From the NCBI GenBank assembly GCA_021846945.1, contig JAJZVZ010000019.1:1-44132 (forward strand): DNA of 44,132 nucleotides, written 5' to 3'. Shown piece after piece: positions 1 to 15,295 of the stretch. Below the pieces are notes generated by a model, which was given only the letters and a program-made list of their open reading frames with translations, had not been told where the DNA came from and ran no database searches. Numbering within the stretch: the stretch's first letter is position 1; every line of letters begins with the position of its first letter. The position numbers and the translations under genes were made by a program. The DNA comes from Acidobacteriota bacterium (GTDB lineage Bacteria; Acidobacteriota; Terriglobia; Terriglobales; Acidobacteriaceae).

Positions 1-123
1 GACAACGTGCAGCTTGAGGTGGACCTGATCACGCCGGTGGCGATGGAGAAGGGGTTGCGGTTCGCGATCCGCGAAGGCGGGCGGACGGTGGGCGCCGGAA
101 CCATCTCGGAGATTCTTAACTGA
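1..123 (+). CDS. tuf: Elongation factor Tu, C-terminal end (5' truncated by window)
   Basis: The frame is open from base 1 and stops at TGA 121-123, leaving 40 residues. The tail [14 protein letters not shown] followed by TISEIL is the conserved end of domain 3 of EF-Tu, the GTPase that delivers aminoacyl-tRNA to the ribosome. Its place directly before rpsJ is the usual str/S10 operon arrangement. The GTPase domain lies outside the window, so nothing can be said about the active site. It is followed by a spacer with two kinds of 7-bp repeats. Confidence 0.95.
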
Positions 124-226
124 GGGAACAGGGACCAGGGGTTAGGGATCCGTGAAGGCAAGGGCCGGAAAGGCGATTGGATTTAACCCGGCGCGACAAG
201 AACTGATCACTGACAACTGATCATTG
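124..226 (+). repeat. Heptamer arrays between tuf and rpsJ
   Basis: Directly after the tuf stop are four G-rich heptamers in perfect 7-bp phase (GGGAACA, GGGACCA, GGGGTTA, GGGATCC; 124-151). A separate array of ACTGATC/ACTGACA-type heptamers sits at 201-226, just before the rpsJ ribosome binding site. Unlike later junctions, the two arrays belong to different families and are not complementary, so no strong stem is expected here. Confidence 0.7.
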
Positions 227-236
227 GAAGGACGTC

Positions 237-554
237 ATGGTAGGACAGAGGATTCGGATCCGGTTGAAGGCATACGACTATCGCGTGCTGGATACCTCTA
301 CGGGCGAGATCGTGGACACGGCCAAGCGTACCGGAGCAACGGTAGCCGGCCCCATTCCCTTGCCGACGATCAAGAACAAGTACTGTGTGCTGCGCTCGCC
401 GCACGTGGACAAGAAGTCGCGCGAGGCGTTCGAGATTCGCACGCATAAGCGGCTGATCGACATTCTGGAGCCGACGCAGCAGACGGTGGATGCCCTGATG
501 AAGCTCGACCTGCCTGCCGGGGTGGATGTGGAGATCAAGGCGTTCGAAAAGTAG
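237..554 (+). CDS. rpsJ: 30S ribosomal protein S10
   Basis: S10 sits in the head of the small subunit and, as NusE, also takes part in transcription antitermination. The protein is 105 residues, normal for the family, and begins with the conserved [13 protein letters not shown] block; GPIPLPT and the RTHKRLIDI segment are also diagnostic. The ATG at 237 is preceded by GGAAGGA with 5 nt spacing. It is the first gene of the S10 group after tuf, and the 138 bp to rplC hold a heptamer repeat pair. Confidence 0.98.
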
Positions 555-639
555 TTGTCAGTGGTCAGTGGTCAGTAGGTGAATGGCGGCTGATGGGCCG
601 GAGTGAACTGATAGCTGTGAGCTGGCAACTGAAGACTGA
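555..639 (+). repeat. Heptamer inverted-repeat pair, rpsJ-rplC gap
   Basis: GTCAGTG is repeated three times in 7-bp phase immediately after the rpsJ stop (555-577). An opposing array of ACTGATA, GCTGTGA, GCTGGCA, ACTGAAG heptamers spans 606-639. The arms are only partly complementary, weaker than most other pairs in this operon. Confidence 0.7.
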
Positions 640-693
640 TTTTGATTCCGGCAGTGCGAGGCAAGCGTACTCGCATGATGAGGTGAGGAAGAT

Positions 694-1419
694 ATGGCAG
701 TAACGGGAATTTTGGGCAAGAAGGTCGGGATGACGCAGGTCTTCGATGAGAAGGGCGATGTGCATCCGATTACGGTGCTTCAAGCCGGGCCGTGCGTAAT
801 TACGCAACTGAAGACGGCGGCAAAAGATGGCTATGACGCCGCGCAGATTGGGTTGGTGGAGTTCGTAAAGGCTTCGCGCATGACCAAGGCGCAGGGCGGA
901 CACCTGGCTAAGACCGAGGCGCCGCCGGTGAAGGTAATCAGAGAAGTTGACGTTGAGCCGGCGGCCGATGGCGGCGATGGCGCCAAGGCGGGCGACCGCG
1001 TGCTGGTCGATATCTTCACGGACTCGAAGTTTGTGGATGTGAGCGGCACTTCGAAGGGCCGGGGATTTGCCGGCGTGGTGCGGCGGCACAAGTTTGGCGG
1101 CGGCCCCAAGTCGCACGGTCACATGTTCCAGGTGCAGGGTTCGATCGGCGCATCCAGCTTTCCGTCACGCGTTTTTCCCGGGCAGCGCATGCCGGGACAC
1201 TACGGAACGGATCAGGTAACAGTGCGCAATCTGCGCATTCGCGGCATCGACCTCGACGAGAATTTGCTGATGGTGGAAGGCGCCGTGCCGGGACCGCGCG
1301 ATGGTTATGTGCTGATTTCGAAGTCCAAGGCCCCTCCGCGCGAGCGCCGTGGCTTTGCCGGATCGGGCACGGTGGATCCGCTGAAGGCGTCGAAGAAGGC
1401 GCAGGCAAAGCGGAAGTAA
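694..1419 (+). CDS. rplC: 50S ribosomal protein L3
   Basis: L3 is an early-assembling large-subunit protein whose extension reaches towards the peptidyl transferase centre. The 241-residue product starts GILGKKVGMTQVF and contains the family signature around FAGVVRRHKFGGG and the GQRMPGHYG loop. The loop glutamine is the residue methylated by PrmB in E. coli. The ATG follows GAGGAAG. The C-terminal tail (KASKKAQAKRK) is basic. The length is somewhat above the usual 205-215 because of inserts near residues 85-100 and the tail. Confidence 0.98.
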   Translation: MAVTGILGKKVGMTQVFDEKGDVHPITVLQAGPCVITQLKTAAKDGYDAAQIGLVEFVKASRMTKAQGGHLAKTEAPPVKVIREVDVEPAADGGDGAKAGDRVLVDIFTDSKFVDVSGTSKGRGFAGVVRRHKFGGGPKSHGHMFQVQGSIGASSFPSRVFPGQRMPGHYGTDQVTVRNLRIRGIDLDENLLMVEGAVPGPRDGYVLISKSKAPPRERRGFAGSGTVDPLKASKKAQAKRK

Positions 1420-1420
1420 G

Positions 1421-1519
1421 CTACCAGCTTTCAGCTCTCAGTTTTCAGTTTGTTGCGGGAGCCGGAATGGATTGTTTTACCGATGGGTGGGCTGAAAGCT
1501 GATGGCTGACAGCTCACAG
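1421..1519 (+). repeat. Heptamer inverted-repeat pair, rplC-rplD gap
   Basis: The 5' array TTCAGCT/CTCAGTT (1421-1451) begins two bases after the rplC stop. The 3' array GCTGAAA, GCTGATG, GCTGACA, GCTC (1490-1519) ends next to the AGGAAG ribosome binding site of rplD. The two arms are reverse complements of the same heptamer type, with a loop of about 38 nt of unrelated sequence. Confidence 0.85.
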
Positions 1520-1529
1520 GAAGAAGACG

Positions 1530-2204
1530 ATGGCAAACGTAGATGTATTGAATTTGAACGGCGAAAAGGTGGGCTCGATGGAGCTGGCTGACGCGGTGTT
1601 TGCGCCGGACCAGGTGAACGAAGCCCTGCTGTGGGAGGCGGTGAAGCATTACCGCGCCTCGCTGCGCCAGGGCACGCACGCCACCAAGAACCGCAAGCTG
1701 GTGGCTGGGTCGGGCAAAAAGCTGTGGAAGCAGAAGGGTACGGGCCGGGCACGCATCGGTTCGGTGCGTTCGCCGCTGTGGCGCCATGGCGGTACGGTGC
1801 ATGGACCTCAGCCGCGCAGCTACGAGTATCCCTTTCCGCGCAAGAAGCTGCTGGGCGCGCTTCGTTCCGCGCTGGCGGCGAAGCTGGCCGATGGCAAGCT
1901 GACGGTGGTGGATTCGCTGGAGATCAAGGAAGCGAAGGCCAAGCTTTACCGCGCGGCGCTGGACAGGCTGGACGCCAAGCGTACCACTCTCCTGGTTGAG
2001 AACGGCAAGACGCTGACGCAGGCCCTGGTGCTGGGCGCGCGCAACCTCGAGGGCGTTGAGCTGGTGCTGAACAACGAAGTGCATCCCTACGATCTGCTGC
2101 GCTATGAACGGGCCATCTTTTCGAAGGCCGCTATCGAGCAGTTGGTTGGAGCGCTTGAAAAGTCCGCGTCGAAGCGGAAGGCCGCGCAGAAGGAGGCAGC
2201 GTAA
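1530..2204 (+). CDS. rplD: 50S ribosomal protein L4
   Basis: L4 lines the constriction of the peptide exit tunnel; in E. coli it also represses its own S10 operon. The 224-residue protein has the tunnel-loop signature (KLWKQKGTGRARIGS, then WRHGGTVHGP) at about residues 67-95. The start is set by AGGAAG upstream of ATG 1530. The stop overlaps the rplW start by one base (TAATG), so the two are probably translationally coupled. This tight junction carries no heptamer repeats. Confidence 0.98.
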   Translation: MANVDVLNLNGEKVGSMELADAVFAPDQVNEALLWEAVKHYRASLRQGTHATKNRKLVAGSGKKLWKQKGTGRARIGSVRSPLWRHGGTVHGPQPRSYEYPFPRKKLLGALRSALAAKLADGKLTVVDSLEIKEAKAKLYRAALDRLDAKRTTLLVENGKTLTQALVLGARNLEGVELVLNNEVHPYDLLRYERAIFSKAAIEQLVGALEKSASKRKAAQKEAA

Positions 2205-2497
2205 TGCCGACTCTCTATAACGTGATTCGCCGTCCGCTCATTACCGAAAAGGGCCTGGGCGTGAAGGAAACCGAAGGGACGCTGGTATTTGATGTGGCGC
2301 CTTCGGCTACGAAGACCGAGGTCAAAGAGGCTGTTGAAGCTCTGTTCAAGGTGAGGGTCGCTGCCGTCCGTACGGCCAATTTTGCGGGCAAAGAGCGCCG
2401 CCGGGGCAGATATGCGGGATTCCGGCCGGACTGGAAGAAGGCTTATGTGCGGCTGAAGGCCGGCGAGAAGATGCCTGAGTACGTGAGCAACTTGTAA
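2204..2497 (+). CDS. rplW: 50S ribosomal protein L23
   Basis: L23 surrounds the exit of the nascent-chain tunnel and is the docking site for trigger factor and SRP. The 97-residue sequence contains the conserved IRRPLITEKG start, the V.VRTANFAGKERRRGR loop and the DWKKAYVRL strand. A strong AAGGAGG lies inside the last codons of rplD, 7 nt before the ATG, which fits coupling to L4 synthesis. Length is typical. Confidence 0.98.
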   Translation: MPTLYNVIRRPLITEKGLGVKETEGTLVFDVAPSATKTEVKEAVEALFKVRVAAVRTANFAGKERRRGRYAGFRPDWKKAYVRLKAGEKMPEYVSNL

Positions 2498-2498
2498 T

Positions 2499-2608
2499 GC
2501 AGCTTCCAGCTTTCAGATCTCAGCTATCAGCTGGGGCATGGGAGATTGAAGGCGGCGGGCAAGACGAAGAAGTTGGTTTGAGCAGGATGGGCTGATAGCT
2601 GATAGCTC
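2499..2608 (+). repeat. Heptamer inverted-repeat pair, rplW-rplB gap
   Basis: The 5' array (CCAGCTT, TCAGATC, TCAGCTA, TCAGCTG) begins two bases after the rplW stop and runs to 2533. The 3' arm (GCTGATA, GCTGATA, GCTC) is at 2590-2608. The 3' arm is shorter than the 5' arm, and the loop is about 56 nt. Confidence 0.8.
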
Positions 2609-2624
2609 ATTAAGGGAAACGAAG

Positions 2625-3449
<825 letters not shown>

Positions 3450-3460
3450 AAAGACAGCCG

Positions 3461-3578
3461 CTAGCTACTAGCTTCCAGCTTCTAGCTGAGTGCGGCAGGT
3501 GAAGAAATCAGGCAAAAGCTCAGAGATTAGCTTGGGCAAGAAAGAGCTAGAAGCTAGGGGCTGGAAGCTAGGAGCTAA
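3461..3578 (+). repeat. Heptamer inverted-repeat pair of the TAGCTTC subtype, rplB-rpsS gap
   Basis: The 5' array (3461-3487) reads CTAGCTA, CTAGCTT, CCAGCTT, CTAGCT. The 3' array (3543-3578) reads AGCTAGA, AGCTAGG, GGCTGGA, AGCTAGG, AGCTAAG. Both arms use a CTAG/TAGC variant rarely used at other junctions, and they are complementary to each other apart from one extra heptamer in the 3' arm. The rpsS Shine-Dalgarno sequence lies within the 3' arm. Confidence 0.88.
3570..3574 (+). promoter_or_regulatory. rpsS ribosome binding site embedded in the repeat arm
   Basis: AGGAG at 3570-3574 is the only good Shine-Dalgarno sequence before rpsS (9 nt from ATG 3584), and it is formed by one unit of the heptamer array. 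In the predicted intercistronic stem it would pair with the 5' array near 3463-3474 with about one mismatch. Translation initiation could therefore depend on the stem being opened. Confidence 0.65.
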
Positions 3579-3583
3579 GTTTT

Positions 3584-3877
3584 ATGGCACGTTCGACAAA
3601 GAAGGGTCCGTTTACGGATGCGCATCTGACGGTAAAGATCGAGGCGCTCAACCGGGCGAACGACAAGAAGGTGGTCAAGACCTGGTCGCGGCGCTCGACG
3701 ATCTTTCCCGAGTTTGTGGGCCACACCATCGCCGTGCACAACGGCAAGAAGTTTGTTCCCGTCTACGTGACCGAGAACATGGTGGGGCATAAGCTGGGCG
3801 AGTTTGCGCCGACGCGCACCTTCAAGGGGCATACGGGCGGCGCCAAGTCGGCCGAGACTGCGGCCAAGCCGCGGTAA
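3584..3877 (+). CDS. rpsS: 30S ribosomal protein S19
   Basis: S19 forms a complex with S13 in the head of the small subunit and contacts the A-site side. The 97-residue sequence begins [10 protein letters not shown] and has the conserved [30 protein letters not shown] core and [12 protein letters not shown] near the end; length is normal. An alternative reading frame that opens upstream at 3490 is out of frame and has no family similarity. The ribosome binding site is part of the heptamer array. Confidence 0.98.
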
Positions 3878-3878
3878 A

Positions 3879-4025
3879 ACAGCTTCCAGCTTCCAGCTGC
3901 CAGCTTTCAGCCTTCAGCTTGATATGGGCGGGATCGACAGCAGCGGCAGCCCGGGAACCAGGAAGCGCGATGAGAGCGATCTCATCGGAAACGTAAGAAG
4001 CTGAGAGCTGAAAGTTGAAAGCTCG
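3879..4025 (+). repeat. Heptamer inverted-repeat pair, rpsS-rplV gap
   Basis: The 5' array has about six units (CCAGCTT, CCAGCTG, CCAGCTT, TCAGCCT, TCAGCTT; 3879-3920) and starts directly after the rpsS stop. The 3' array (AGCTGAG, AGCTGAA, AGTTGAA, AGCTCG) is at 3997-4025. The loop of about 76 nt contains its own short palindrome (GAGAGCGATCTC, 3973-3984). Confidence 0.85.
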
Positions 4026-4042
4026 CATTGAGGAACGCAGAG

Positions 4043-4489
4043 ATGGCAGTCGAGACAAGAGAATTCCGGGCCGAGGCCAGGTTCCAGCGCGTATCGCCGC
4101 AGAAGGCGCGGCTGGTGCTTGATCTGATTAAGGGCCGGGGGGTTCAGGAGGCGCTGGAGACAGCGGCCTTTACCAAGAAGCGCATCGCTCCGGTGATCCA
4201 TAAGCTGTTGACCTCGGCGGTGGACAACGCCAAGTTTGTGGCCGGCGAAGAGGGCATCGACCTGGATGTGGATAACCTCTACGTCAAGCAGGCATTGGCC
4301 AACGACGGGCCGCGCATGAAGCGCATTCGTCCGGCGCCCATGGGCCGCGCCTATCGCTACCAGCGCAGGCTGGCGCACATTGTTGTTTCGCTGGCTGAGC
4401 GCGAGGCTGCCGGGGATCTGGTGACCAAGGCGGAAGAGCCGGAAGCGGCGCCGAAGAAGACTGGGAAAAAGGCCGCCAAAAAGGCCTGA
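4043..4489 (+). CDS. rplV: 50S ribosomal protein L22
   Basis: L22 lines the polypeptide exit tunnel opposite L4. ATG 4043 is chosen over an in-frame TTG at 4028 because GAGGAA lies 7 nt before it and the resulting N-terminus (MAVETREFRAEAR) fits the family. The 148 residues include RVSPQKARLVLDLIKG, KLLTSAVDNA and the beta-hairpin GPRMKRIRPAPMGRAYR that enters the tunnel. The Lys/Ala-rich tail (EAAPKKTGKKAAKKA) is an extension beyond the usual 110-120 residues. Only 21 bp separate it from rpsC, with no repeats. Confidence 0.97.
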   Translation: MAVETREFRAEARFQRVSPQKARLVLDLIKGRGVQEALETAAFTKKRIAPVIHKLLTSAVDNAKFVAGEEGIDLDVDNLYVKQALANDGPRMKRIRPAPMGRAYRYQRRLAHIVVSLAEREAAGDLVTKAEEPEAAPKKTGKKAAKKA

Positions 4490-4510
4490 GAGGTTTTTGA
4501 GAGGAAAAGT

Positions 4511-5185
4511 ATGGGACAGAAGGTCCATCCTTACGGATTCCGGCTGGGAATCAACAAGCCATGGCGCTCGCGTTGGTTCTCGGAGCGCGACTATGACAAG
4601 CTCCTGGTCGAGGACGTGAAGCTCAAGGCCGAGCTGCGCGAAAAGTTGAAGGCGGCCGGCGTGAGCTCGGTGGAGATCGAGCGGCCCGGCAACAAGCTGC
4701 GCTTTCTCATCCGCACCGCCCGCCCCGGGATCGTGATCGGCCGCAAGGGCGCGGAGATTGAAAAGCTGAAGACCGAGCTCGGCAAGCGCACCAGCCGCGA
4801 CGTGTTCATCGACATCATCGAGGTGAACAAGCCGGAGCTGGACGCGCAGCTGGTATCGGAGAATATCGCCCTGCAACTGGAGAAGCGCGTCAGCTTCCGG
4901 CGGGCCATGCGCAAGAGCGTGGACTCGGCGCTGCGCTTCGGCTGCAAGGGAATCAAGGTGCGCGTTTCGGGTCGTCTGAACGGCAATGAGATCGCGCGCT
5001 CGGAGTGGTATCTGCAGGGGCGGCTGCCGCTGCATACGCTTCGCGCGGATGTAGATTACGGCTTCACCGAGGCGCATACGACCTATGGCGTGATCGGCGT
5101 GAAGACATGGATCTATCGCGGCGACATCTACGAGCAGAAGCGGCGCCATGCGCAGCCTGCTGCGGTTGGTTCAGGCGTTTTTTAG
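4511..5185 (+). CDS. rpsC: 30S ribosomal protein S3
   Basis: S3 forms part of the mRNA entry channel and contributes to helicase activity. The 224-residue product starts [13 protein letters not shown], carries a KH domain with the nucleic-acid-binding GxxG loop in [16 protein letters not shown] (about residues 70-87), and a C-terminal domain with [15 protein letters not shown] and the DYGF motif. GAGAGGAAAAGT before ATG 4511 is a good ribosome binding site. Length is typical. Confidence 0.98.
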
Positions 5186-5187
5186 AG

Positions 5188-5326
5188 ATAGCTGTCAGTG
5201 ATCAGTGGTCAGTTGGTTGTTTTTGGGTCTTTGCGGCGGTAGGTTGCTGGATTTTGTCGTGAGTGGTTGAAGCAAGGATCGAGGCAAGGACAAACTGATC
5301 ACGGGTTGCTGACAACTGACGGCTGT
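5188..5326 (+). repeat. Heptamer inverted-repeat pair of the GTCAGT subtype, rpsC-rplP gap
   Basis: The 5' array (GCTGTCA, GTGATCA, GTGGTCA, GTTGG; 5188-5218) starts two bases after the stop. The 3' array (ACTGATC, ACGGGTT, GCTGACA, ACTGACG, GCTGT; 5291-5326) is its rough reverse complement. Both arms use CAGT/ACTG in place of CAGCT/AGCTG, again matched within the pair. The loop is about 72 nt. Confidence 0.8.
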
Positions 5327-5343
5327 ATTTCGAGGTTTTCGCT

Positions 5344-5781
5344 ATGTTGATGCCAAAGAAGGTGAAGTTCCGCAAGCAGCAGAAGGGCAAGCGCCGCGGC
5401 AAGGCCTGGCGCGGTTCTACGCTGTCGTTCGGTGAGTACGGATTGAAAGTGATGGAGTGCGGTTACATCACCGACCGGCAGATTGAAGCCAGCCGTATCG
5501 CCATGACCCGCTTTATCAAGCGGGGCGGCAAGATCTGGCTGCGGTTGTTCCCGGATAAGCCGATTACCAAGAAGCCGGCCGAAGTTCGAATGGGCTCAGG
5601 CAAGGGCGCACTGGATCACTGGGTTGCGGTGGTGCGGCCGGGCAAGATCCTGTTTGAAATGGAGGGGGTTACCCCTGAGATTGCGGCGGAAGCGATGCGG
5701 CTGGCGTCGCACAAGCTGCCGCTGAAGACGAAGTTTGTGCAGCGGCCCGATGCCGAAAAGACGGTCGTGGCGGCCAAGTAA
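5344..5781 (+). CDS. rplP: 50S ribosomal protein L16
   Basis: L16 positions tRNA in the A and P sites of the large subunit. The protein is 145 residues and opens [19 protein letters not shown], matching the conserved MLxPKR start, which supports ATG 5344 rather than the methionine two codons later. [26 protein letters not shown] and [15 protein letters not shown] are diagnostic. GAGG lies 10 nt before the start. Confidence 0.98.
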
Positions 5782-5787
5782 GGAAGA

Positions 5788-5889
5788 AGCCATCAGCTAT
5801 CAGCGAGTGGCGGTAGAGAAGTGGTTGTAACTGGCGTTCACAGATCGTTATGGCAAGAGCGAATTGTGGGCTGAAAGCTAGGAGCTAAG
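5788..5889 (+). repeat. Heptamer inverted-repeat pair, rplP-rpmC gap
   Basis: A short 5' array (CATCAGC, TATCAGC; 5788-5806) and a 3' array (GCTGAAA, GCTAGGA, GCTAAG; 5868-5889). The 3' arm ends in the same 14 bases (GCTAGGAGCTAAGT) found before rpsS and supplies the rpmC ribosome binding site. The loop is about 61 nt. Confidence 0.75.
5880..5884 (+). promoter_or_regulatory. rpmC ribosome binding site embedded in the repeat arm
   Basis: AGGAG at 5880-5884, 10 nt before ATG 5895, is created by a heptamer unit of the 3' arm. It can pair imperfectly with the 5' arm at 5789-5805. The arrangement repeats the one before rpsS. Confidence 0.6.
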
Positions 5890-5894
5890 TAACT

Positions 5895-6143
5895 ATGGAA
5901 CTCGCAAAGATTCGCAGCTTGAGCGACGTGGAATTGGCGCACCAGGAGAAGGTCACCGCCGAGCAGTTGTTTCGCCTGCGCTTTCAGGTCGCGCTTGGGC
6001 AGAACGACGGTGTGAAGAAGATCCGTCTGCTGCGCAGGGAGATCGCACAAATCAAGACCGTGGCCCGGGAACGGCAGTTGGGTATTCACGGCGCGGCGCA
6101 GGATGCTGCGGCGGCGGGCGCCAGGAAGGGAATGCGTTCATAA
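5895..6143 (+). CDS. rpmC: 50S ribosomal protein L29
   Basis: L29 is a small helical protein next to L23 at the tunnel exit. The 82 residues start [17 protein letters not shown] and include [12 protein letters not shown] and [16 protein letters not shown], the two-helix hairpin of the family. A C-terminal Ala/Gly-rich tail ([13 protein letters not shown]) makes it longer than the usual 63-70. The stop overlaps the rpsQ start by one base (TAATG). Confidence 0.96.
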
Positions 6144-6466
6144 TGGCAACGACACAAGCAGAGCAGGGGCAGCCGGCTGCCTCGCGGCGCAATGAAAAGG
6201 TTGGCCAGGTGGTTTCGACCAAGATGCAGAAGACCATCGTGGTCGAGGTGGAGATGCGCAAGGCGCATCCCAAGTACAAGCGCATCGTGCGCAGCACCAA
6301 AAAGTTCTATGCCCACGACGAGCAGAATTCCGCCCGGATGGGGGATATGGTGCGTATCCGCGAGACGCGTCCGATGAGCAAGTTGAAGCGCTGGTCTCTC
6401 GAAGAGATTGTCCGGCGGTCCTCGCTGAGCCAGATTGAGGACACGGCGCACGAGCCCGTAAATTAG
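6143..6466 (+). CDS. rpsQ: 30S ribosomal protein S17
   Basis: S17 is a primary 16S rRNA binder with an OB fold. In the 107-residue product the core begins at [17 protein letters not shown] (about residue 22) and runs through [26 protein letters not shown]; the first 20 residues are a polar extension. AGGAAGGGA in the end of rpmC precedes the overlapping start. It is followed after 24 bp by rplN. Confidence 0.97.
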
Positions 6467-6490
6467 CGCGAGTGAGAAGGAGAAGAAATC

Positions 6491-6862
6491 ATGGCTGTGC
6501 AAATGAGAACCATGCTCGCGGTAGCCGATAACTCCGGGGCGCGCAAGCTGCAGGTGATTCTGCCGCTGGGTGGCGGGCTGGGTGTGAAGGCCGGTCTCGG
6601 CGATGTTGTGACCGCGGCGGTGAAGGAGGCTTCACCCGACGGCACCGTGAAGAAGGGTAAGGTAGTGAAGGCGGTTATCGTGCGCACCCGCAAGGAGCAC
6701 CGGCGGCGCGACGGCACCTACATCCGCTTTGACGAGAACGCGGCGGTGGTGATCGACGAGCAGCATGAGCCGGTGGGCACGCGTGTTTTTGGCCCCGTCG
6801 CCCGCGAACTGCGCGAGAAGAAGTTTTTGAAGATTGTTTCGCTGGCGCCTGAAGTGATTTAA
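6491..6862 (+). CDS. rplN: 50S ribosomal protein L14
   Basis: L14 lies at the subunit interface and forms bridges to 16S rRNA with L19. The 123 residues are the normal length. [19 protein letters not shown], the [32 protein letters not shown] block and [17 protein letters not shown] are the classic signatures. AAGGAG precedes ATG 6491 with good spacing. Confidence 0.99.
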
Positions 6863-6865
6863 AGA

Positions 6866-6958
6866 CGGCTTCCAGCTCTTGGCTCCCCGCTCTTTTCGAT
6901 CATTCGATGCACCGTGCGGGAGCGATAACAGAGCTAGAAGCTGGTGGCTAGAAGCTGT
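6866..6958 (+). repeat. Heptamer inverted-repeat pair, rplN-rplX gap
   Basis: The 5' array (GGCTTCC, AGCTCTT, GGCTCCC, CGCTCTT; 6866-6893) and the 3' array (AGCTAGA, AGCTGGT, GGCTAGA, AGCT; 6930-6958) keep the 7-bp phase with less conserved bases. The loop is only about 36 nt. Confidence 0.75.
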
Positions 6959-6972
6959 TCCTGGAGAATTTA

Positions 6973-7299
6973 ATGCCGAGCATGAATATTCATCGTAATG
7001 ATACGGTCAAGATCCTCACCGGATCGGACCGCGGCAAGACACAGCGCGTGCTGCGCGTTTTCCCCGACAAGGGAACGCTGCTGGTGGAGCACGTGCGCGT
7101 GGTCAAGAAGACGGTTTCGAGCAAGACGGGCCAGCGGACCCGCGGCGGCATCGCCGAGCAGGAATCGCCGATTCATGTCTCGAATGTGGCGCTGGTTTGT
7201 CCCAATTGCGGGCCCACCCGTGTCGGGTTCAAGACTGAAGGCGACACGAAGATGCGGATTTGCAAAAAGTGTGGACAGGAACTGGCCACGAAGAAGTGA
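6973..7299 (+). CDS. rplX: 50S ribosomal protein L24
   Basis: L24 is an assembly initiator of the large subunit. The 108-residue protein has the KOW motif NDTVKILTGSDRGKTQRVLRV near the N-terminus. A C-terminal zinc-ribbon-like pair follows (CPNCGPTRVGF, then ICKKCGQEL), as in many L24 proteins. The ATG at 6973 is preceded by TGGAG. A second ATG three codons in is possible. Confidence 0.97.
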   Translation: MPSMNIHRNDTVKILTGSDRGKTQRVLRVFPDKGTLLVEHVRVVKKTVSSKTGQRTRGGIAEQESPIHVSNVALVCPNCGPTRVGFKTEGDTKMRICKKCGQELATKK

Positions 7300-7303
7300 G
7301 GAA

Positions 7304-7376
7304 GGCAGCTCTCAGCTTTTAGTGACTCGCGCACGGTTGACGGGTTTGGGAAAAGCAAAATGAGCTGAAAGCTGTT
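7304..7376 (+). repeat. Heptamer inverted-repeat pair, rplX-rplE gap
   Basis: A short pair: 5' array CAGCTCT, CAGCTTT, TAGT (7304-7323) and 3' array GAGCTGA, AAGCTGT (7361-7376). The core arms are complementary. Unlike most junctions, about 75 nt of non-repeat sequence separates the 3' arm from the next start codon. Confidence 0.75.
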
Positions 7377-7453
7377 TTAGAGATTCCTTCCGCAACGGTA
7401 AACGGCCGCAACCGCGGCCACTCCGGGCGCCGGAAGAAAGAGAGCAGAGCACA

Positions 7454-8002
7454 ATGGCGGCAAGACTGAAAGAGAAGTATCACAAGGAAATCAAGCAGGC
7501 GCTCCAAAAGGAACTGGGATTGAAGAATTCCATGGCGGTGCCGCGGCTGGAAAAGATTGTAATCAACATGGGGCTGGGCGAAGCCACGCAGAACACCAAG
7601 CTTCTGGATCCGCTGGTGGCTGACCTGACGGCAATCGCCGGACAGAAGCCGGTGACCACCAAGGCCAAGAAGTCAATTGCGGCGTTCAAGGTGCGCACTG
7701 GTATGTCAATTGGCGCCATGGTGACGCTGCGCAGCGACAAGGCCTTCGAGTTTCTTGACCGCCTGATTTCTACGGCGCTGCCCAGAGTGCGCGACTTTCG
7801 CGGCGTATCGACCAAGAGCTTTGACGGCCGCGGCAACTACACGCTGGGATTGCGCGATCAGCTGATCTTCCCGGAGATCGATTACGCCAAGGTGGAGAAG
7901 CTGAAGGGCATGAACATCACGATCGTGACCTCCGCGAAGGACGATAACTCGGCGCGGGCGTTGCTGCGTCACTTCGGGATGCCGTTCCGGCAGGGTGCGT
8001 AA
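7454..8002 (+). CDS. rplE: 50S ribosomal protein L5
   Basis: L5 binds 5S rRNA and contacts P-site tRNA. The 182-residue protein has [16 protein letters not shown], the [19 protein letters not shown] block, [26 protein letters not shown] and the [13 protein letters not shown] signature. Length is normal (178-187). The region before ATG 7454 has only a weak purine stretch, so the ribosome binding site is poor. Confidence 0.98.
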
Positions 8003-8003
8003 A

Positions 8004-8147
8004 GGCAGCTACTAGCTTTCAGCTTTTAGTTTGACTAGTTGGAACGGGCCTCTGGGTCCCAGACAGAAATTGGCCGGGCACAGAGGACGAAAAATTGGGT
8101 TGAGCAGCAATGAGCTGAAAGCTGATGGCTGGTAGCTGAAGGCTGTT
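8004..8147 (+). repeat. Heptamer inverted-repeat pair, rplE-rpsN gap
   Basis: The 5' array (GCAGCTA, CTAGCTT, TCAGCTT, TTAGTTT; 8004-8031) follows the stop by one base. The 3' array (AGCTGAA, AGCTGAT, GGCTGGT, AGCTGAA, GGCTG; 8111-8147) ends just before the GAGG ribosome binding site of rpsN. The loop is about 79 nt. Confidence 0.85.
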
Positions 8148-8158
8148 GAAGAGGATTT

Positions 8159-8344
8159 ATGGCAACTACTTCAAAGAGGGTGAAAGACGCGCGGAAGCCG
8201 AAGTTCAGCTGCCGCAAGCACAACCGGTGCAAGCTCTGCGGGCGGCCGCGGGGATATCTGAGAAAGTTCGGCATCTGCCGTTTGTGCTTCCGGGCGCTGG
8301 CGCTGAAGGGCGAGATCCCGGGCGTCGTCAAGTCGAGCTGGTAG
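8159..8344 (+). CDS. rpsN: 30S ribosomal protein S14, zinc-binding type (type Z)
   Basis: The 61-residue length and four cysteines (C24, C27, C40, C43 in CKLC...CRLC) identify the short zinc-binding form of S14, a small-subunit head protein. No zinc-free paralogue is visible in the window. GAGGA 5 nt before ATG 8159 fixes the start. A longer overlapping frame from 8146 is out of frame. Confidence 0.98.
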
Positions 8345-8349
8345 CAAGA

Positions 8350-8465
8350 CAGTCGTCAGGGATCAGTTGTCAGCGGTCAGTTGCTTTGTGCATTGGGTGG
8401 CTGTCGAGGCCAAAGCAATCAGCGGCAGCAAAACTGAAAACTGACAGCTGATGACTGACAACTGC
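8350..8465 (+). repeat. Heptamer inverted-repeat pair of the GTCAGT subtype, rpsN-rpsH gap
   Basis: The 5' array (CAGTCGT, CAGGGAT, CAGTTGT, CAGCGGT, CAGTTG; 8350-8383) and the 3' array (AACTGAA, AACTGAC, AGCTGAT, GACTGAC, AACTG; 8431-8465) are well phased and complementary. The loop is about 47 nt. About 75 nt of unrelated sequence follows before rpsH. Confidence 0.85.
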
Positions 8466-8541
8466 AGTAACCATTCCCGCAGGTTTCCGCCTGGCCACTG
8501 CGAAAAGGCGCGGCGGACGAACGGGGAATGAAGGAGAAGGA

Positions 8542-8937
8542 ATGAGTCTGACTGATCCCGTAGCGGATTTTCTGGCGCGGATCCGGAATGCGATCCGGGC
8601 GCGTCATCAGAAGCTGGATGTGCCGGCTTCGAAGCTAAAGACGGAGATTGCCCGCATCCTCAAGGAAGAGGGCTATATCTCCAACTACAAAACGCAGGAA
8701 GAAGAGGGCAAGCTGGTGCTGCGCGTGTATCTGAAGTATGGCGGCCAGGAACCGGCCATCCGTGATCTGGCGCGCATTTCGCGACCCGGCTGCCGCGTCT
8801 ACGTGGGCCGCGACGAGATCAAGCGCGTCCAGGGCGGACTGGGCATCTCGATTCTCACCACGCCCAAGGGCGTGATGACGGGCCGCCAGGCGCGCCGCGA
8901 AGGCGTAGGCGGCGAGTTGTTGTGCGAAGTGTGGTAA
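8542..8937 (+). CDS. rpsH: 30S ribosomal protein S8
   Basis: S8 binds the central domain of 16S rRNA; in E. coli it represses the spc operon. The 131-residue protein begins MSLTDPVADFLARIRNAI and contains LKEEGYISNYK, the ISRPGCRVYVGRDEIKRVQGGLGISILTTPKGVMT core and ends GGELLCEVW, all diagnostic. AAGGAG precedes the ATG. Confidence 0.99.
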   Translation: MSLTDPVADFLARIRNAIRARHQKLDVPASKLKTEIARILKEEGYISNYKTQEEEGKLVLRVYLKYGGQEPAIRDLARISRPGCRVYVGRDEIKRVQGGLGISILTTPKGVMTGRQARREGVGGELLCEVW

Positions 8938-8940
8938 AGA

Positions 8941-9049
8941 CAGCCGTCAGTGATCAGTTGTCAGCTATCAGTTGGCTTGTGCCGGGTCAAGATCCTTGGC
9001 GGAACCGAAGTTTTTTGCTGAAAGCTGAAGGCTGATAACTGACAACTGT
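8941..9049 (+). repeat. Heptamer inverted-repeat pair, rpsH-rplF gap
   Basis: The 5' array (CAGCCGT, CAGTGAT, CAGTTGT, CAGCTAT, CAGTTGG; 8941-8974) begins 3 bases after the stop. The 3' array (GCTGAAA, GCTGAAG, GCTGATA, ACTGACA, ACTG; 9016-9049) is near-complementary unit by unit, including the switch from AGCTG to ACTG. The loop is about 41 nt. Confidence 0.88.
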
Positions 9050-9117
9050 TTTCCGGCTGCAGTGGAACGACGGGCGAAGGCCCGGGCGGGACTCGCAAGC
9101 CACCAAAGGATTGAAGA

Positions 9118-9657
9118 ATGTCGCGTATTGGAAAGAAGCCAATCCCGCTGCCGGCGGGCGTGAAGTACAAGGTTGAAGGCAATACCGTTCTGGTCGAGGG
9201 GCCGAAGGGCAAAGTCTCGGCGATGATTGCCGACGGAGTTTCACTGAAGACCGTTGACGGACATCTGCTGGTGGAACGCGCGAGCGAGGACAAGGCTGCC
9301 GTGCATGGACTGACGAGGGCCCTGGTCAACAACGCCGTCGAGGGCGTGACCAAGGGCTGGACGAAAGATCTGGACATTGTCGGCATCGGCTACCGCGCGG
9401 AGTTGAAGGGCAAAGGCACGGTGGTGTTCACACTGGGCTACTCGCATCCCATCGAGTTTCCGCTGCCTTCGGGCATCGAGGTGGCCATCGATCCCAAGCA
9501 AACGCACCTGACGATCAGCGGCATCGACCGCCAGAAGGTGGGCCAGGTGGCCGCCGATATGCGCGCGCTACGCAAGCCCGATCCGTACAAGAACAAGGGC
9601 GTGCGCTACTCCAACGAGAAGCTGAAGAAGAAGGCCGGCAAGACGGGAGCAAAGTAA
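9118..9657 (+). CDS. rplF: 50S ribosomal protein L6
   Basis: L6 sits near the sarcin-ricin loop and the translation factor binding site. The 179-residue product starts [15 protein letters not shown] and has [32 protein letters not shown] and the C-terminal [10 protein letters not shown] signature, with both repeats of the L6 fold. AAAGGA precedes ATG 9118. Length is normal. Confidence 0.99.
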
Positions 9658-9740
9658 GCTGATAGCAGGCAGCTGACAGCCTGCAGAGAAGAGACGGTGC
9701 CGCAACTGTTCGCTGTCTGCTGTTCGCTGCAAGCTGCAAC
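9658..9740 (+). repeat. Heptamer inverted-repeat pair with reversed orientation, rplF-rplR gap
   Basis: Here the 5' array directly after the stop is of the AGC type (AGCTGAT, AGCAGGC, AGCTGAC, AGCCTGC; 9656-9687). The 3' array is CTGTTCG, CTGTCTG, CTGTTCG, CTGCAAG, CTGCAAC (9704-9740). The arms are still inverted relative to each other, but the order is opposite to the other junctions. The loop is only about 17 nt. Confidence 0.8.
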
Positions 9741-9788
9741 AACCGAACGGGGCCGCGGGGCGGCTCCGCCGATAGGTGAGAGAATAAG

Positions 9789-10145
9789 ATGATTACGCAG
9801 ACCAAGAGGAACGCAATCCGCCAGCGCATTCACGCGCGCATTCGCCAGAAGCTGGCCGGGACCGCTGAGCGGCCGCGGCTGAACGTTTACCGCTCGCTGA
9901 ACCACATCTATGCGCAGGTGATCGACGACCAGAAGGGCGAGACGCTGGCTTCGGCTTCCACGCTGGCGCTCAAGCTCAAGACCGGTGGCAATGTATCCGC
10001 GGCCAAGGAGATTGGCAAGGTGATCGCTGAACGCGCTGCCGAGAAGGGCGTCAAGCGGGTGGTCTTCGATCGCGGCGGCTACCTCTATCACGGGCGCGTC
10101 AAGGCGCTGGCCGATGCGGCCCGCGAGGCGGGGCTGGAGTTTTAA
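9789..10145 (+). CDS. rplR: 50S ribosomal protein L18
   Basis: L18 binds 5S rRNA with L5. The 118-residue protein contains [31 protein letters not shown], the VGKVIAERA-like segment and [28 protein letters not shown] at the C-terminus, the strongest family signature. GGTGAG precedes ATG 9789. Length is typical. Confidence 0.99.
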
Positions 10146-10147
10146 AG

Positions 10148-10232
10148 CAGCGATCAGCTCTCAGCCATCAGCTTTCAGCTTATGGTGGCAGGATGATCAG
10201 CTCTTCTGAGCACGAAGAGCTGAGAGCTGCAA
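10148..10232 (+). repeat. Heptamer inverted-repeat pair, rplR-rpsE gap
   Basis: The 5' array (CGATCAG, CTCTCAG, CCATCAG, CTTTCAG, CTT; 10148-10181) and a shorter 3' array (GAGCTGA, GAGCTGC; 10214-10232). The loop of about 32 nt contains a small palindrome around AGCTCTTCTGAGC. The last 48 nt before rpsE are non-repeat. Confidence 0.82.
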
Positions 10233-10280
10233 GGGCAGGTTTTCCACGGCGCGTGGCGCCCGGAAGGACAGACAAAAGCA

Positions 10281-10790
10281 ATGACGACTTTGAAGAAGAA
10301 ACTCGATGCCGGCCAGTACAACCTGAAGGATCAGGTGGTGGCCATCAATCGCGTGACCAAGGTGGTGAAGGGCGGCAAGAATATGTCGTTCGCCGCGCTG
10401 GTGGTGGTGGGTGATGCCGCCTCGGGCGTGGTGGGCTACGGTTCGGGCAAGGCCAAGGAGGTTCCCCAGGCCATTCGCAAGGGAATCGAGAGCGCCAAGA
10501 AGAACCTGGTGAAGGTCAATCTGACGGAAACGACGATTCCGCACCAGGTACTGGGACGCTTCGGCTCCGGCCAGGTGCTGCTGAAACCGGCCCCCGAGGG
10601 AACCGGCGTGATCGCCGGCGGCGCGGTGCGCGCGGTGATGACTTCGGCCGGCGTGCAGAACGTGCTGACCAAGAGCCTGGGCTCGGCCAATCCGCATAAC
10701 GTCATTAAGGCCACCTTTGCGGCGCTGGAGCAACTGCGTGACCGGGCCGAAGTGGCTGCCACGCGCGGCAAAACGGCGGAGGAGCTGTAA
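10281..10790 (+). CDS. rpsE: 30S ribosomal protein S5
   Basis: S5 affects decoding fidelity and the mRNA entry tunnel. The 169-residue protein has the N-terminal double-stranded RNA-binding fold ([27 protein letters not shown], then [17 protein letters not shown]) and the C-terminal [38 protein letters not shown] block. Its last codons carry GGAGGA, the ribosome binding site for rpmD three bases further on. Confidence 0.99.
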
Positions 10791-10793
10791 ATC

Positions 10794-10982
10794 ATGGCGG
10801 AAACCAGGAAGATTCGCATTCAGTACTACCGCTCGGCCATCGCCACACCTACCAAGCACAAGCTGGTGGTCAAGGGGCTGGGCTTCACGCGGCTGAACCA
10901 GATTGTCGAGCGCGAGGATACGGCAGCGGTGCGGGGCATGGTGAAGACGGTGCCGCATCTTGTCCGGATTGTCGAAAAGTAA
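10794..10982 (+). CDS. rpmD: 50S ribosomal protein L30
   Basis: L30 is a small protein of the large subunit. The 62 residues contain KIRIQYYRSAIATPTKHKLVVKGLGFTRLNQIVEREDTAAVRGMVKTVPHLVRIV, the full family core; length is normal. The start ATG is 3 bases after the rpsE stop and uses GGAGGA within rpsE, so the pair is likely coupled. Confidence 0.97.
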   Translation: MAETRKIRIQYYRSAIATPTKHKLVVKGLGFTRLNQIVEREDTAAVRGMVKTVPHLVRIVEK

Positions 10983-10987
10983 TTGAA

Positions 10988-11057
10988 CAGATATCAGCTT
11001 TCGGCTCCGGCTTGCCCCGGGAGAAGTGAAAACTGAGAGCTGAAGGCTGATAACTGC
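10988..11057 (+). repeat. Heptamer inverted-repeat pair with almost no loop, rpmD-rplO gap
   Basis: The 5' array (ATCAGCT, TTCGGCT, CCGGCTT; 10988-11010) and the 3' array (AACTGAG, AGCTGAA, GGCTGAT, AACTGC; 11029-11057) are complementary. Only about 18 nt separate the arms, making this one of the tightest hairpins of the set. Confidence 0.82.
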
Positions 11058-11112
11058 TTTTATAACGCGAGTCGGCGAGACTCAATCCTGCCGGCGCTAT
11101 AGCGAGGAGAAT

Positions 11113-11574
11113 ATGGCAAAGAATCTATCGAATCTGCGCGCGCCCAAGAAGGCGAATACCGGTCGCAAGCGTGTTGGCCGGGGCATGGGCTCCGGCATGG
11201 GCAAGACCTCAACCCGCGGCCACAAGGGCCAGGGCTCACGCTCCGGTTCGAGCCTGATGCGCGGTTTTGAAGGCGGCCAGATGCCGCTGCACCGGCGCCT
11301 GCCCAAGCGCGGATTTACCAACATCTTCCGCACCGAGTACACGGTGGTGAATCTGGACCGGATCGCGGCGCTGGATGTGGCTGAGATCGGCCTCGACGAT
11401 TACGCCAAGCTCGGCCTGGCCTCGAAGCGGAATGCGCTGATCAAGGTTCTCGGCTCGGGTGAGCTGACTTCGGCAAAGACCATTCATGCCCACAAGTTTT
11501 CCAAGTCGGCGGCGGAAAAAATCGAGAAGGCCGGCGGCAAGGCTGTGGTTGCGGGCGCTCCGGCAGCGGCTTGA
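11113..11574 (+). CDS. rplO: 50S ribosomal protein L15
   Basis: L15 is a late-assembling large-subunit protein. The 153 residues begin with LSNLRAPKKANTGRKRVGRGMGSGMGKTSTRGHKGQ, the conserved basic N-terminus, followed by FEGGQMPLHRRLPKRGF and the C-terminal ISAEKI-like region SKSAAEKIEKAGG. GAGGAG precedes ATG 11113. The 230-bp gap to secY is the only large spacer in the operon without heptamers. Confidence 0.99.
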   Translation: MAKNLSNLRAPKKANTGRKRVGRGMGSGMGKTSTRGHKGQGSRSGSSLMRGFEGGQMPLHRRLPKRGFTNIFRTEYTVVNLDRIAALDVAEIGLDDYAKLGLASKRNALIKVLGSGELTSAKTIHAHKFSKSAAEKIEKAGGKAVVAGAPAAA

Positions 11575-11804
11575 GGTTGTGCGGTTTCCCACCTGCAACC
11601 TTCTTAGTCCCGGAACGGTGCAGGACATGGGTCCCCGGGTGCAAAGGCTGTGACCGCGAACACGGCGCGGGCTGTTTTCGGGGCTTGAGAATGGCTGCCT
11701 GAACCATTCCGCAGCAGGCGACAAGCTTGGCTCGTCGCGCGTAAGATGGTGGATACCGGCAGAGATTTATAGGGGCGGCAGACGCCTGAAGCGGATTACC
11801 AATT
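11575..11804 (+). other. Long repeat-free spacer between rplO and secY
   Basis: This 230-bp gap has no gene and none of the heptamer arrays seen at other long junctions. It contains CCTGCA (11592-11597) and TGCAGG (11619-11624), a 6-bp inverted repeat with a 21-nt loop. A TATAGG element lies about 30 nt before secY. It could hold an internal promoter or leader for secY-adk-map, but there is no clear -35 box and the idea is weak. Confidence 0.4.
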
Positions 11805-13193
11805 ATGCTTGAGAAGTTCCTCAATATCTTCCGAATTCCCGACCTGCGCAAGCGGGTGTTCTTCACCATGGGCATCCTGGCCGTTTACCGGCTGGGCGCC
11901 TGGATTCCCACGCCGGGCGTGAACGCGCACCAATTGGAACTGCTCTTCAGCGGGCAGAGCGGGTCGGCGCTGGGGCTGATGGACCTGTTCACCGGTGGCA
12001 CGCTGCGCCGCATGACCATCTTTGCCCTGGGCATCATGCCCTATATTACGGCGTCTATTATCTTTCAGCTTCTGACCGTCGTATATGAGCCGCTGCGGCG
12101 CATTGAAAAGGAAGGCGAACTGGGCCGGCGCAAGATCACGCAGTGGACCCGCTACCTGACCGTCATTCTGGGGGCGCTGCAGTCGATCGGCATCGCATTC
12201 ATGCTTACCCGCTCGCCGGGCCTGGTGCTCAATCCGGGCATCGGCTTTGACTTAATGACGGTGTTGACGCTGACCACGGGCACGGCCTTCATCATGTGGC
12301 TGGGCGAGCAGATTACTGACCGGGGCATCGGCAACGGCATGAGCCTGCTGATCTTTGCAGGTATTGTGGCCGGCCTGCCGCGTGGCGTGGCTGAGATGTA
12401 CCAGAAGGTACAGACCGACGCCTGGGGTTCGGTGACCATGCTGGTGGTACTGCTGCTTTTGGTTGGCATGGTGGCCGTGGTGGCCTTTATCGTCTTCGTC
12501 GAGCGGGCGGAGCGGCGCATTCCTATCCAGAGCGCGCGGCGCATCGTCGGCCGGCGCATGATGGGCGGGCAATCGAGCCACTTGCCGCTCAAGGTGAACT
12601 CCGGCGGCGTGATGCCGATTATCTTTGCCAGCTCCATCCTTTCTGCGCCGTTGATGTTCGGCACGTCGGAGTTCGTGCAGAACAGCAAGTTTCTCCAGCC
12701 CATCATGCAGGCGCTTCAGCCCGGCTATCCGTGGTATGAGCTTCTGAACTGCCTGGGCATCATCTTTTTTGCGTATTTTTATGTTTCGATCGTGATGAAG
12801 CCGGACGACATTGCCGACAACTTCCGCAAGTCGGGATCGTTTATCCCCGGCATTCGGCCCGGCAAGCGCACGTCGGATTTCATCAATGACATTCTTACCC
12901 GCATTACTTTGGTAGGCGCGCTCTACCTGATTCTAGTTTCACTGGTACCGACATTCCTGATCTCGGGCATCCGTTTCGACAAGATATGGCTCATCGGCCG
13001 GGCCTTTGAGAATCTGCCGACCTGGGCGATTCACGGCATGGGGGTCAATTTCTACTTTGGCGGCACCTCGCTGCTCATTGTGGTGGGTGTGGCTATGGAT
13101 ACGGTCAACCAGATCGAATCGCAGCTCGTCATGCGTCACTATGACGGCTTTTCCCCGCGCTCCGGTCGCATACGCGGAAGGAAAACCTGGTAA
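11805..13193 (+). CDS. secY: Protein translocase subunit SecY
   Basis: SecY is the channel of the Sec translocon in the inner membrane. The 462-residue protein opens LNIFRIPDLRKRVFFTMGILAVYRLGAWIPTPGV and has about ten hydrophobic segments. GIMPYITASIIFQLL (TM2), RGIGNGMSLLIFAGI, the cytoplasmic ARRIVGRRMMGGQSSHLPLKVN loop and GIRPGKRTSDFI are the usual signatures. The ribosome binding site is weak. The stop TAA overlaps the adk ATG by one base. Confidence 0.99.
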   Translation: MLEKFLNIFRIPDLRKRVFFTMGILAVYRLGAWIPTPGVNAHQLELLFSGQSGSALGLMDLFTGGTLRRMTIFALGIMPYITASIIFQLLTVVYEPLRRIEKEGELGRRKITQWTRYLTVILGALQSIGIAFMLTRSPGLVLNPGIGFDLMTVLTLTTGTAFIMWLGEQITDRGIGNGMSLLIFAGIVAGLPRGVAEMYQKVQTDAWGSVTMLVVLLLLVGMVAVVAFIVFVERAERRIPIQSARRIVGRRMMGGQSSHLPLKVNSGGVMPIIFASSILSAPLMFGTSEFVQNSKFLQPIMQALQPGYPWYELLNCLGIIFFAYFYVSIVMKPDDIADNFRKSGSFIPGIRPGKRTSDFINDILTRITLVGALYLILVSLVPTFLISGIRFDKIWLIGRAFENLPTWAIHGMGVNFYFGGTSLLIVVGVAMDTVNQIESQLVMRHYDGFSPRSGRIRGRKTW

Positions 13194-13915
13194 TGTCATC
13201 ATCGGTAAGTGCCGTGCAACGTGGCCGGGCAGCGGGAAGAAAGACCGCTCCCGGCCCGATTCTTTTAATGGGCGCACCGGGTGTGGGCAAGGGGACCCAG
13301 GCCAAGGAGCTGGTGAAGTTGTGGGGAATTCCGCAAATCTCCACCGGCGACCTGTTGCGCGCCAATGTGGCCCAGGATACTTCGCTGGGCCGGGTGGCCA
13401 AGGAGATCATGGGGCGGGGAGAGCTGGTTCCCGATTCCCTGGTGGATGAAATGGTGGCGGTGCGGCTCCAGCAGCCCGATGCTGCCAAGGGATACATTCT
13501 GGACGGGTTTCCGCGCACGCTGGGGCAGGCTGGCTGGCTGGACGGGCGGCTGGCCGCGCAGCCGAAGCCACTACCGGTGGTTGCTGTCAGCATTCAAGTC
13601 GACTATAATCAATTACTGCGCCGGATTACCGGTCGCCGGAATTGTCCTGTCTGCCAGACCATCTACAACATCTATGTGAATCCGCCCCGGCGGGATGGAT
13701 TCTGCGATGTGGAGGGCGCGGCGCTGGTTCAGAGGGCTGACGACACGGAACAGGTATTCAAGGAGCGCATGCGCGCCTACGCGGCCCTTACGGCGCCCGT
13801 CGTCGAGCATTACCGGGCCTTAGGACGTTTTGCGGAAGTGAATGGAGACCGGCCGATAGCGGAAGTTGCGGCCGGAATTGTTGCCGCCGTCGAGCGGCTG
13901 CGCGAGACGGCGTAG
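13193..13915 (+). CDS. adk: Adenylate kinase, zinc-type LID
   Basis: Adenylate kinase interconverts ATP+AMP and 2 ADP in the cytoplasm. The 240-residue protein has the P-loop GAPGVGKGT (27-35), STGDLLR for AMP binding, DGFPRT, and a long LID with C151, C154 and C171. The fourth zinc ligand position is E174 in place of the usual Cys or Asp. An extra 20-residue basic N-terminus precedes the P-loop strand, so a later start cannot be excluded; ATG 13193 overlaps the secY stop and has GGAAGGA upstream. The secY-adk-map order is classical. Confidence 0.97.
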   Translation: MSSSVSAVQRGRAAGRKTAPGPILLMGAPGVGKGTQAKELVKLWGIPQISTGDLLRANVAQDTSLGRVAKEIMGRGELVPDSLVDEMVAVRLQQPDAAKGYILDGFPRTLGQAGWLDGRLAAQPKPLPVVAVSIQVDYNQLLRRITGRRNCPVCQTIYNIYVNPPRRDGFCDVEGAALVQRADDTEQVFKERMRAYAALTAPVVEHYRALGRFAEVNGDRPIAEVAAGIVAAVERLRETA

Positions 13916-13945
13916 CCGGATGGCGTGTTTGCGCGTAAGAAGCTT

Positions 13946-14020
13946 TTATCAGCTGGCAGCTTTCAGTTGTCGGTTCGATTGCTGGTAACTGTCGGTGGTT
14001 AGCTGCCGGCTGAAGGCTGG
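13946..14020 (+). repeat. Heptamer inverted-repeat pair, adk-map gap
   Basis: The 5' array (TATCAGC, TGGCAGC, TTTCAGT, TGTCGGT; 13946-13976) and the 3' array (GGTAACT, GTCGGTG, GTTAGCT, GCCGGCT, GAAGGCT; 13982-14020) are complementary in their central units. The array ends only 5 nt before the GTG start of map and replaces a normal ribosome binding site. Confidence 0.78.
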
Positions 14021-14025
14021 GTTGA

Positions 14026-14775: not shown

Positions 14776-14834
14776 AAACGCTCGGTCCAACAGGCCGGCC
14801 ACGCCTGGAGCAGGTCGGCGGAATGGGATGCGGT

Positions 14835-15053: not shown

Positions 15054-15133
15054 CTCTCAGCCGTCAGCTTTCAGTTTTTCTGTGCTGAGGAAGCAGCCTC
15101 AACTGTTAAAGGCTGTGAGATGAAGGCTGAGAA
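15054..15133 (+). repeat. Heptamer inverted-repeat pair, infA-rpmJ gap
   Basis: The 5' array (CTCTCAG, CCGTCAG, CTTTCAG; 15054-15074) begins on the first base after the infA stop. The 3' array (GGCTGTG, AGATGAA, GGCTGAG; 15110-15133) is its reverse-complement type. The loop is about 33 nt. Confidence 0.8.
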
Positions 15134-15294: not shown

Positions 15295-15295
15295 G

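Follow-up and report, generated by a model that had tools for sequence, protein, structure and literature searches.

The Shine-Dalgarno site of rpsS lies inside one of two heptamer arrays that stand in inverted orientation as the arms of a stem, an arrangement common to 22 other recognized elements of the genus. With modest confidence, the array is best explained as a dispersed DNA-level repeat that overlaps an older S19 ribosome site, and that may exert a moderate constitutive damping of translation rather than act as a switch under the control of termination at rplB. The window, i.e., the whole stretch of DNA analyzed, comprises 44,132 nt of contig JAJZVZ010000019.1 from an Acidobacteriota bacterium.

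Layout of the rplB-rpsS spacer

The spacer between rplB and rpsS is 134 nt long (3450-3583) and contains, together with its flanking genes, the following features.

2625..3449, + strand: rplB (ribosomal protein L2), with Pfam L2 N and C domains; stop codon TAG at 3447-3449
3455..3487, + strand: 5' heptamer arm, CAGCCGC TAGCTAC TAGCTTC CAGCTTC TAGCT (inverted-repeat search, register alignment, and sequence)
3488..3544, + strand: centre between the arms, 57 nt, alignable by eye with many of the 27 related rplB-rpsS inserts
3545..3577, + strand: 3' heptamer arm, AGCTAGAAGCTAGGGGCTGGAAGCTAGGAGCTA (inverted-repeat search, register alignment, and sequence)
3570..3574, + strand: Shine-Dalgarno AGGAG of rpsS, within the final unit of the 3' arm
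3584..3877, + strand: rpsS (ribosomal protein S19), with Pfam Ribosomal_S19

The inverted-repeat search matched 3462-3487 with 3552-3577 at 88%, and 3456-3487 with 3545-3576 at 78%. An earlier, sequence-only reading of this DNA had placed the only AGGAG before rpsS in the 3' heptamer arm, which was confirmed: the motif occurs a single time in 3450-3583, within the last unit and 9 nt before the rpsS ATG at 3584. The same reading had proposed that the motif can pair with 3463-3474. The minimum-energy fold agrees with this, as its predicted partners lie at 3465-3469: the AGGAG letters 3570, 3571, 3573, and 3574 pair with 3469, 3468, 3466, and 3465, respectively, and 3572 is left unpaired. Folding of the transcript 3440-3620 gave -68.5 kcal/mol (z -4.0), and none of 200 shuffles was equally low. 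An alternative register, shifted by one heptamer and pairing 3455-3487 with 3545-3577, is also possible. No Rfam family matched the window at the gathering score.

Heptamer arrays in the window, genome, and phylum

Many spacers in the window's S10-spc-alpha region carry inverted heptamer pairs. Three spacers illustrate how the arrays stand relative to the ribosome site of the next gene.

2498..2624, + strand: rplW-rplB spacer, inverted heptamer pair, with a separate purine-rich stretch between array and start codon (from sequence)
3878..4042, + strand: rpsS-rplV spacer, inverted heptamer pair, with a separate GAGGA between array and start codon (from sequence)
5782..5894, + strand: rplP-rpmC spacer, where the AGGAG of the following gene, for L29, lies at 5880-5884 inside the 3' array

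Periodicity was scored in spacers between genes called by script. Among the tandem spacers of 1-19056, 10 of 22 passed the strict threshold for a 7-nt period and 14 passed a looser one. Elsewhere, one of 10 tandem spacers from the remainder of the window passed the strict threshold, as did one of 61 (two at the looser threshold) in stretches of 20 other contigs. None of the 42 convergent or divergent spacers passed the strict threshold, and one passed the looser one; hence, the pooled strict counts were 12 of 93 tandem spacers versus 0 of 42. The period is heptameric: 12 of the 135 spacers reached the strict score at lag 7, while the other lags from 4 to 12 together yielded one.

A three-unit pattern had 216 matches genome-wide versus 36 for a reversed control, so the heptamer arrays exceed chance. 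All 54 matches in the window fell within 1-19056, and five were found in the 242 kb of the 20 contigs. Among the matches listed, which cover about half of those in the genome, 21 places (16 loci) outside the window were inspected: 16 are between co-directional genes, three between divergent genes, one between convergent genes, and one overlaps a gene end. The neighbors of these inspected places, named from their translations, include atp genes, rplM-rpsI-rpsB, rplJ-rplL, a gene upstream of EF-Tu, and mdh-icd, as well as genes outside the ribosomal protein and atp-like kinds. Across the phylum, a four-unit pattern occurred in 109 of 247 Acidobacteriota genomes with a patchy distribution, a count that is an upper bound because the reversed control was equally common or commoner in a good number of genomes.

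Several variants were seen alongside these arrays. The rplE-rpsN spacer of six species (L158, L165, L168, L179, L186, and L204) carries an AGTTCAC-like unit, not AGCT, in both arms, which are matched. Outside the ribosomal region, the spacer at 25325-25542 of the window has heptamers of another flavor at either end, ATCAGAG and CTCTGAT. The stretch 21787-22412, which was called as a spacer and is perhaps a proline-rich coding part, contains tandem repeats of about 15 nt (GAACTGGGTGGATTG). A spread of the CTAG flavor from the ribosome-site unit into both arms was also considered and dropped, because TAGC units at rpsS-rplV (0.52) and rplC-rplD (0.53) match those at rpsS (0.55) in frequency.

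The same spacer across the genus

For the genus, which includes Terracidiphilus gabretensis, 80 genomes were searched and rpsS was found in 58. The spacer was compared at 58 loci in 57 genomes (two loci in one genome; a partial match, G047, was left out). Its length fell into distinct classes: 26 spacers were 10-15 nt (23 of them exactly 15), three were 21 nt, two were 62 nt, and 27 were 115-145 nt. The 21-nt spacers look like remnants, and the 62-nt spacers hold another insert. The close species L152 and L151 have a different 47-nt insert, with GC-rich palindromes 5' of an AGGAGC.

Both arrays were recognized by pattern in 24 of the 27 long spacers, and the ribosome site was within an arm in 23 of these 24; one array was lost or changed in G067, G075, and G078. 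The long spacers end on their 3' side with AGGAGCT in 26 cases and GGGAGCT in one. The 26 short spacers begin with AGGAGCT (8), AGGAGCG (11), or AGGAGCA (1), and the other six differ but are purine-rich. Since AGGAGC stands at the start of 20 of the 26 array-free short spacers, the S19 ribosome site exists without the array and is probably older than it.

On a tree of 57 rows, where G010 was dropped for gaps and the 21- and 62-nt spacers were scored as lacking the array, array presence changed 12 times, and 11 of these changes were forced by starred branches. For example, G001 (15 nt) and G009 (133 nt) differ in the array, with one difference within the 60 nt compared on each side. Short and long forms were also found for several other spacers. 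The centre common to many inserts would fit an old presence followed by repeated loss, or recombination, as well as it would fit gain.

Matching of the two arms

Exchange of arms between species was applied to all spacers of 85-260 nt, whether or not they had recognizable arrays. Own arms paired better than swapped arms in 14 of 21 spacers (at most 1 in 2000 permutations); in the remaining seven they were not clearly better, and rplO-secY went the opposite way. At rplB-rpsS, the values were -48.7 for own and -43.3 for swapped arms. Of the 27 inserts at this site, 19 have at least 20 of 33 positions paired in one register; whole-arm swaps reached the observed pairing in four of 2000 trials. Four of the 19 were then set aside because their inner sections do not align in register, leaving the 15 best in-register species. 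In these, two or more Watson-Crick types occurred at seven stem positions outside the ribosome-site unit and at none inside it, where the 3' side hardly varies and pairing is frequently lost. Thus, the two arms have changed in concert, and the letters of the ribosome site have been retained. An avoidance by the 5' arm of perfect pairing with AGGAG was also considered but was indistinguishable from a general rarity of C: a C opposite the middle G was absent in 19 of 19 inserts, but the equivalent positions carried C in only 1, 2, and 3 of 19.

If pairing in the RNA had been preserved, G-U oppositions should far exceed A-C oppositions on the sense strand. Over 273 ungapped helices, detected with a scoring that favors neither, G-U was counted 378 times versus 325 for A-C (p 0.05), or 107 versus 76 when counted per element (p 0.03). 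The tRNAs gave 12 versus 0; these few oppositions come from 14 of 16 tRNAs, counted in the acceptor and T stems, and the finder that located the tRNAs itself favors pairs. At rplB-rpsS alone the counts were 46 versus 25, and they were 32 versus 13 outside the ribosome-site unit in the 15 best in-register species; coming from related species and from one locus of 22, this excess is at most a weak sign of selection on RNA. Some such selection is possible given the slight overall excess and that at rplB-rpsS, and transcription-linked mutation could also shift the ratio. As judged from these sequence comparisons, the complementarity of the arms fits best with a mainly DNA-level origin.

The same data bear on whether the array is an intercistronic RNA element selected for its structure, for instance as a long imperfect duplex that serves mRNA stability or is processed by RNase III or RNase E. 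Arms matched within species would be expected of such an element, and the confinement of strict periodicity to tandem spacers, the ribosomal protein and atp neighbors, and the G-U excess at rpsS all point in its direction. However, A-C is nearly as common as G-U over the helices as a whole, the array comes and goes at the site, and five of the 21 sampled places are not between co-directional genes. Selection for RNA structure as the main explanation is accordingly considered unlikely.

Possible mobility of the arrays and possible supply of ribosome sites

Presence or absence at a fixed site is also the pattern expected of a REPIN- or MITE-like element moved by a Y1 (IS200-type) transposase. 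Consistent with this, near-full-length relatives of the rplB-rpsS element were found at other loci, for example in the atpG-atpD and rplM-rpsI spacers (names from translations), and the genome has seven Y1 transposase matches. Nevertheless, none of the seven Y1 loci (2.0-3.4 kb) contained a three-unit array, no target duplication was seen by eye in the rplB-rpsS spacers, and the centres of the elements in the window differ by eye, which makes transposition of this kind quite unlikely. Two of the seven matches (L258 and L260) are interrupted by a stop codon.

REP and REPIN sequences associated with RAYT transposases are, in the available description, dispersed hairpin-forming repeats thought to be mobile (PMC3733652). 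As far as that source describes them, they are built on a 20-40 bp palindrome with a GTAG or CGTC tag, whereas in layout the element here has a centre of 57 nt between arms that are each about 33 nt long (PMC3733652). The RAYT gene is there flanked by the repeat; no three-unit array was found at the Y1 loci of this genome, taken together whether or not they encode RAYTs.

Edges with AGGAGCT also stand before atpD, rpsI, and other genes, although these came from a similarity search with the rplB-rpsS copy, which favors such finds. Their recurrence could indicate an element that brings a ribosome site with it and does not merely meet one. The atpG-atpD spacer (assigned by translations; L250, near 1090-1240 on the reverse strand) has a 3' arm in which AGGAGCT and AGAAGCT alternate, giving several possible ribosome sites in a row. 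Taken to its full extent, this idea would make the AGGAGCT heptamer the ribosome-binding site itself and the inverted array a travelling translation module, which supplies the site, sets its exposure by a heptamer-slipping stem, and keeps its arms matched by copying across the hairpin. That proposal is considered quite improbable.

Predicted hiding of the ribosome site

The mean predicted unpaired probability of the S19 site was 0.26 in the 27 long spacers and 0.59 when the 5' arm was removed. Among array-free spacers it was 0.54 in the 29 short ones (10-21 nt) and 0.43 in the two of 62 nt. The sequence-only reading placed the rpsS site within a repeat unit and expected it to be hidden in the stem; the placement stands, and the hiding is predicted to be partial, both here and in related species with both arrays.

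Such hiding was infrequent among other genes. Of 864 spacers of 10-260 nt with a recognizable ribosome site, 246 had an element, and the site was in an arm in 32 of them (23 at rpsS, seven at rpmC, and two elsewhere). The other 214 element-bearing spacers had a site accessibility of 0.553, versus 0.559 for the 618 element-free spacers. When 5' halves were taken from other species, the S19 site was unpaired at 0.292 versus 0.258 with its own (p 0.29), and the own-arm folds were somewhat stronger (-74.5 versus -71.7, p 0.03). The hiding of the ribosome site is hence real in prediction and peculiar to a few genes, without visible tuning, and a moderate damping of S19 translation by the stem is possible.

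The stem begins a median of 3 nt after the stop codon in 248 elements and 5 nt at rplB-rpsS. Of 20 spacers, 12 had an unpaired remainder, from stop to stem plus stem to start, of 10-29 nt, and eight had one of 54-81 nt. At rplB-rpsS the median remainder was 10 nt, compared to the 15-nt spacers free of elements. A folded element that brings stop and start close would therefore fit rplB-rpsS and a majority of spacers but not all, given the eight exceptions.

Systems in which secondary structure sequesters a ribosome site until the upstream gene is translated are known. The earlier suggestion that ribosomes finishing rplB open the stem, and so couple S19 translation to that of L2, was not supported by the fold predictions. 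Masking the end of rplB plus 9 or 13 nt past its stop left the site at a mean of 0.28 or 0.29, and in this genome the value was 0.29 in both cases as well as unmasked. With 28 nt masked, the mean was 0.40 and the site exceeded 0.5 in nine of the 27 long spacers; only with about 33 nt did the site exceed 0.5 in 21 of 27. The site presumably stays hidden until then because the inner 5' heptamers re-pair in a shifted register. Coupling is considered quite improbable: although the loss of hiding without the 5' arm, the site-in-arm arrangement at nearly all recognized rpsS elements, and the stem start so close to the rplB stop would suit it, a terminating ribosome is predicted to leave the site hidden, swapped arms hide it as well as own ones, and the array is absent from the 26 of 58 spacers that are only 10-15 nt long. 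Systems with hidden sites hold the ribosome site of the downstream gene in a stem (PMC8092293), as is predicted for rpsS. The rpsS arrangement differs in that a ribosome at the upstream stop, that of rplB, is predicted not to open the stem.

Proposed origin and effect

Under the preferred explanation of a dispersed DNA-level repeat over an older site, the element consists of two arrays of YAGYNNY heptamers that face each other across a centre, which is 57 nt long in this copy. It begins right behind a stop codon, precedes the start of the following gene, and in most cases separates genes of the same direction. The 3' end of the rpsS copy runs into AGGAGCT, and the older ribosome site may have become the edge unit of the array. 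The arms would be kept complementary mainly by a DNA-level process, such as heptamer slippage with copying across the hairpin, or the insertion of matched pairs; no RNA switch would need to have been selected as the main cause of their complementarity. In the mRNA, the site would be partly covered by a stem whose registers are interchangeable, and S19 initiation would then depend on breathing of the stem or on the small subunit unfolding its base. The expected effect is a moderate and constitutive damping, with stop and start held close at the stem base.

Relation to known repeats and implications

The layout is close to that of the GGGAATC heptamer arrays of Xanthomonas, most of which are described as intergenic; the majority lie between co-directional genes and nearer the upstream gene, with 70 and 75 cases of two inverted arrays close together (PMC4692102). 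As in that description, the acidobacterial arrays occur in close inverted pairs and mostly between co-directional genes (PMC4692102). The Xanthomonas unit is G-rich and has been studied for quadruplexes, and overlap with a ribosome site is not among the features described in the portion of the source consulted; the acidobacterial unit, unlike it, is YAGYNNY, with arms matched within species (PMC4692102).

Similarly, TAACTGA direct repeats of Beggiatoaceae are reported just upstream of start codons, some of them in ribosomal protein operons; about 90% of these spacers lack a Shine-Dalgarno site, and the unit has little such character (PMC4679880). Read on the opposite strand, TAACTGA fits the YAGYNNY of the acidobacterial arrays (PMC4679880). 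Whereas the Beggiatoaceae repeats, as far as that account goes, are direct and replace the ribosome site, the acidobacterial arrays are inverted and AGGAG is present in the unit (PMC4679880).

No account of acidobacterial heptamer arrays was found in the open-access literature searched by topic and by repeat stretches as text. The arrays are classed here as a variant of inverted heptamer repeats that is apparently new in that literature.

Matched arms in a spacer need not imply a selected RNA switch, and near-equal counts of A-C and G-U provide a simple check. Pairs of species such as G001 and G009 form a natural experiment, in which one essential gene has a hairpin covering its start in one species and none in the other. 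Arrays of this kind, should they indeed set translation levels, would represent a repeat-based tuning device in the housekeeping operons of a common soil phylum.
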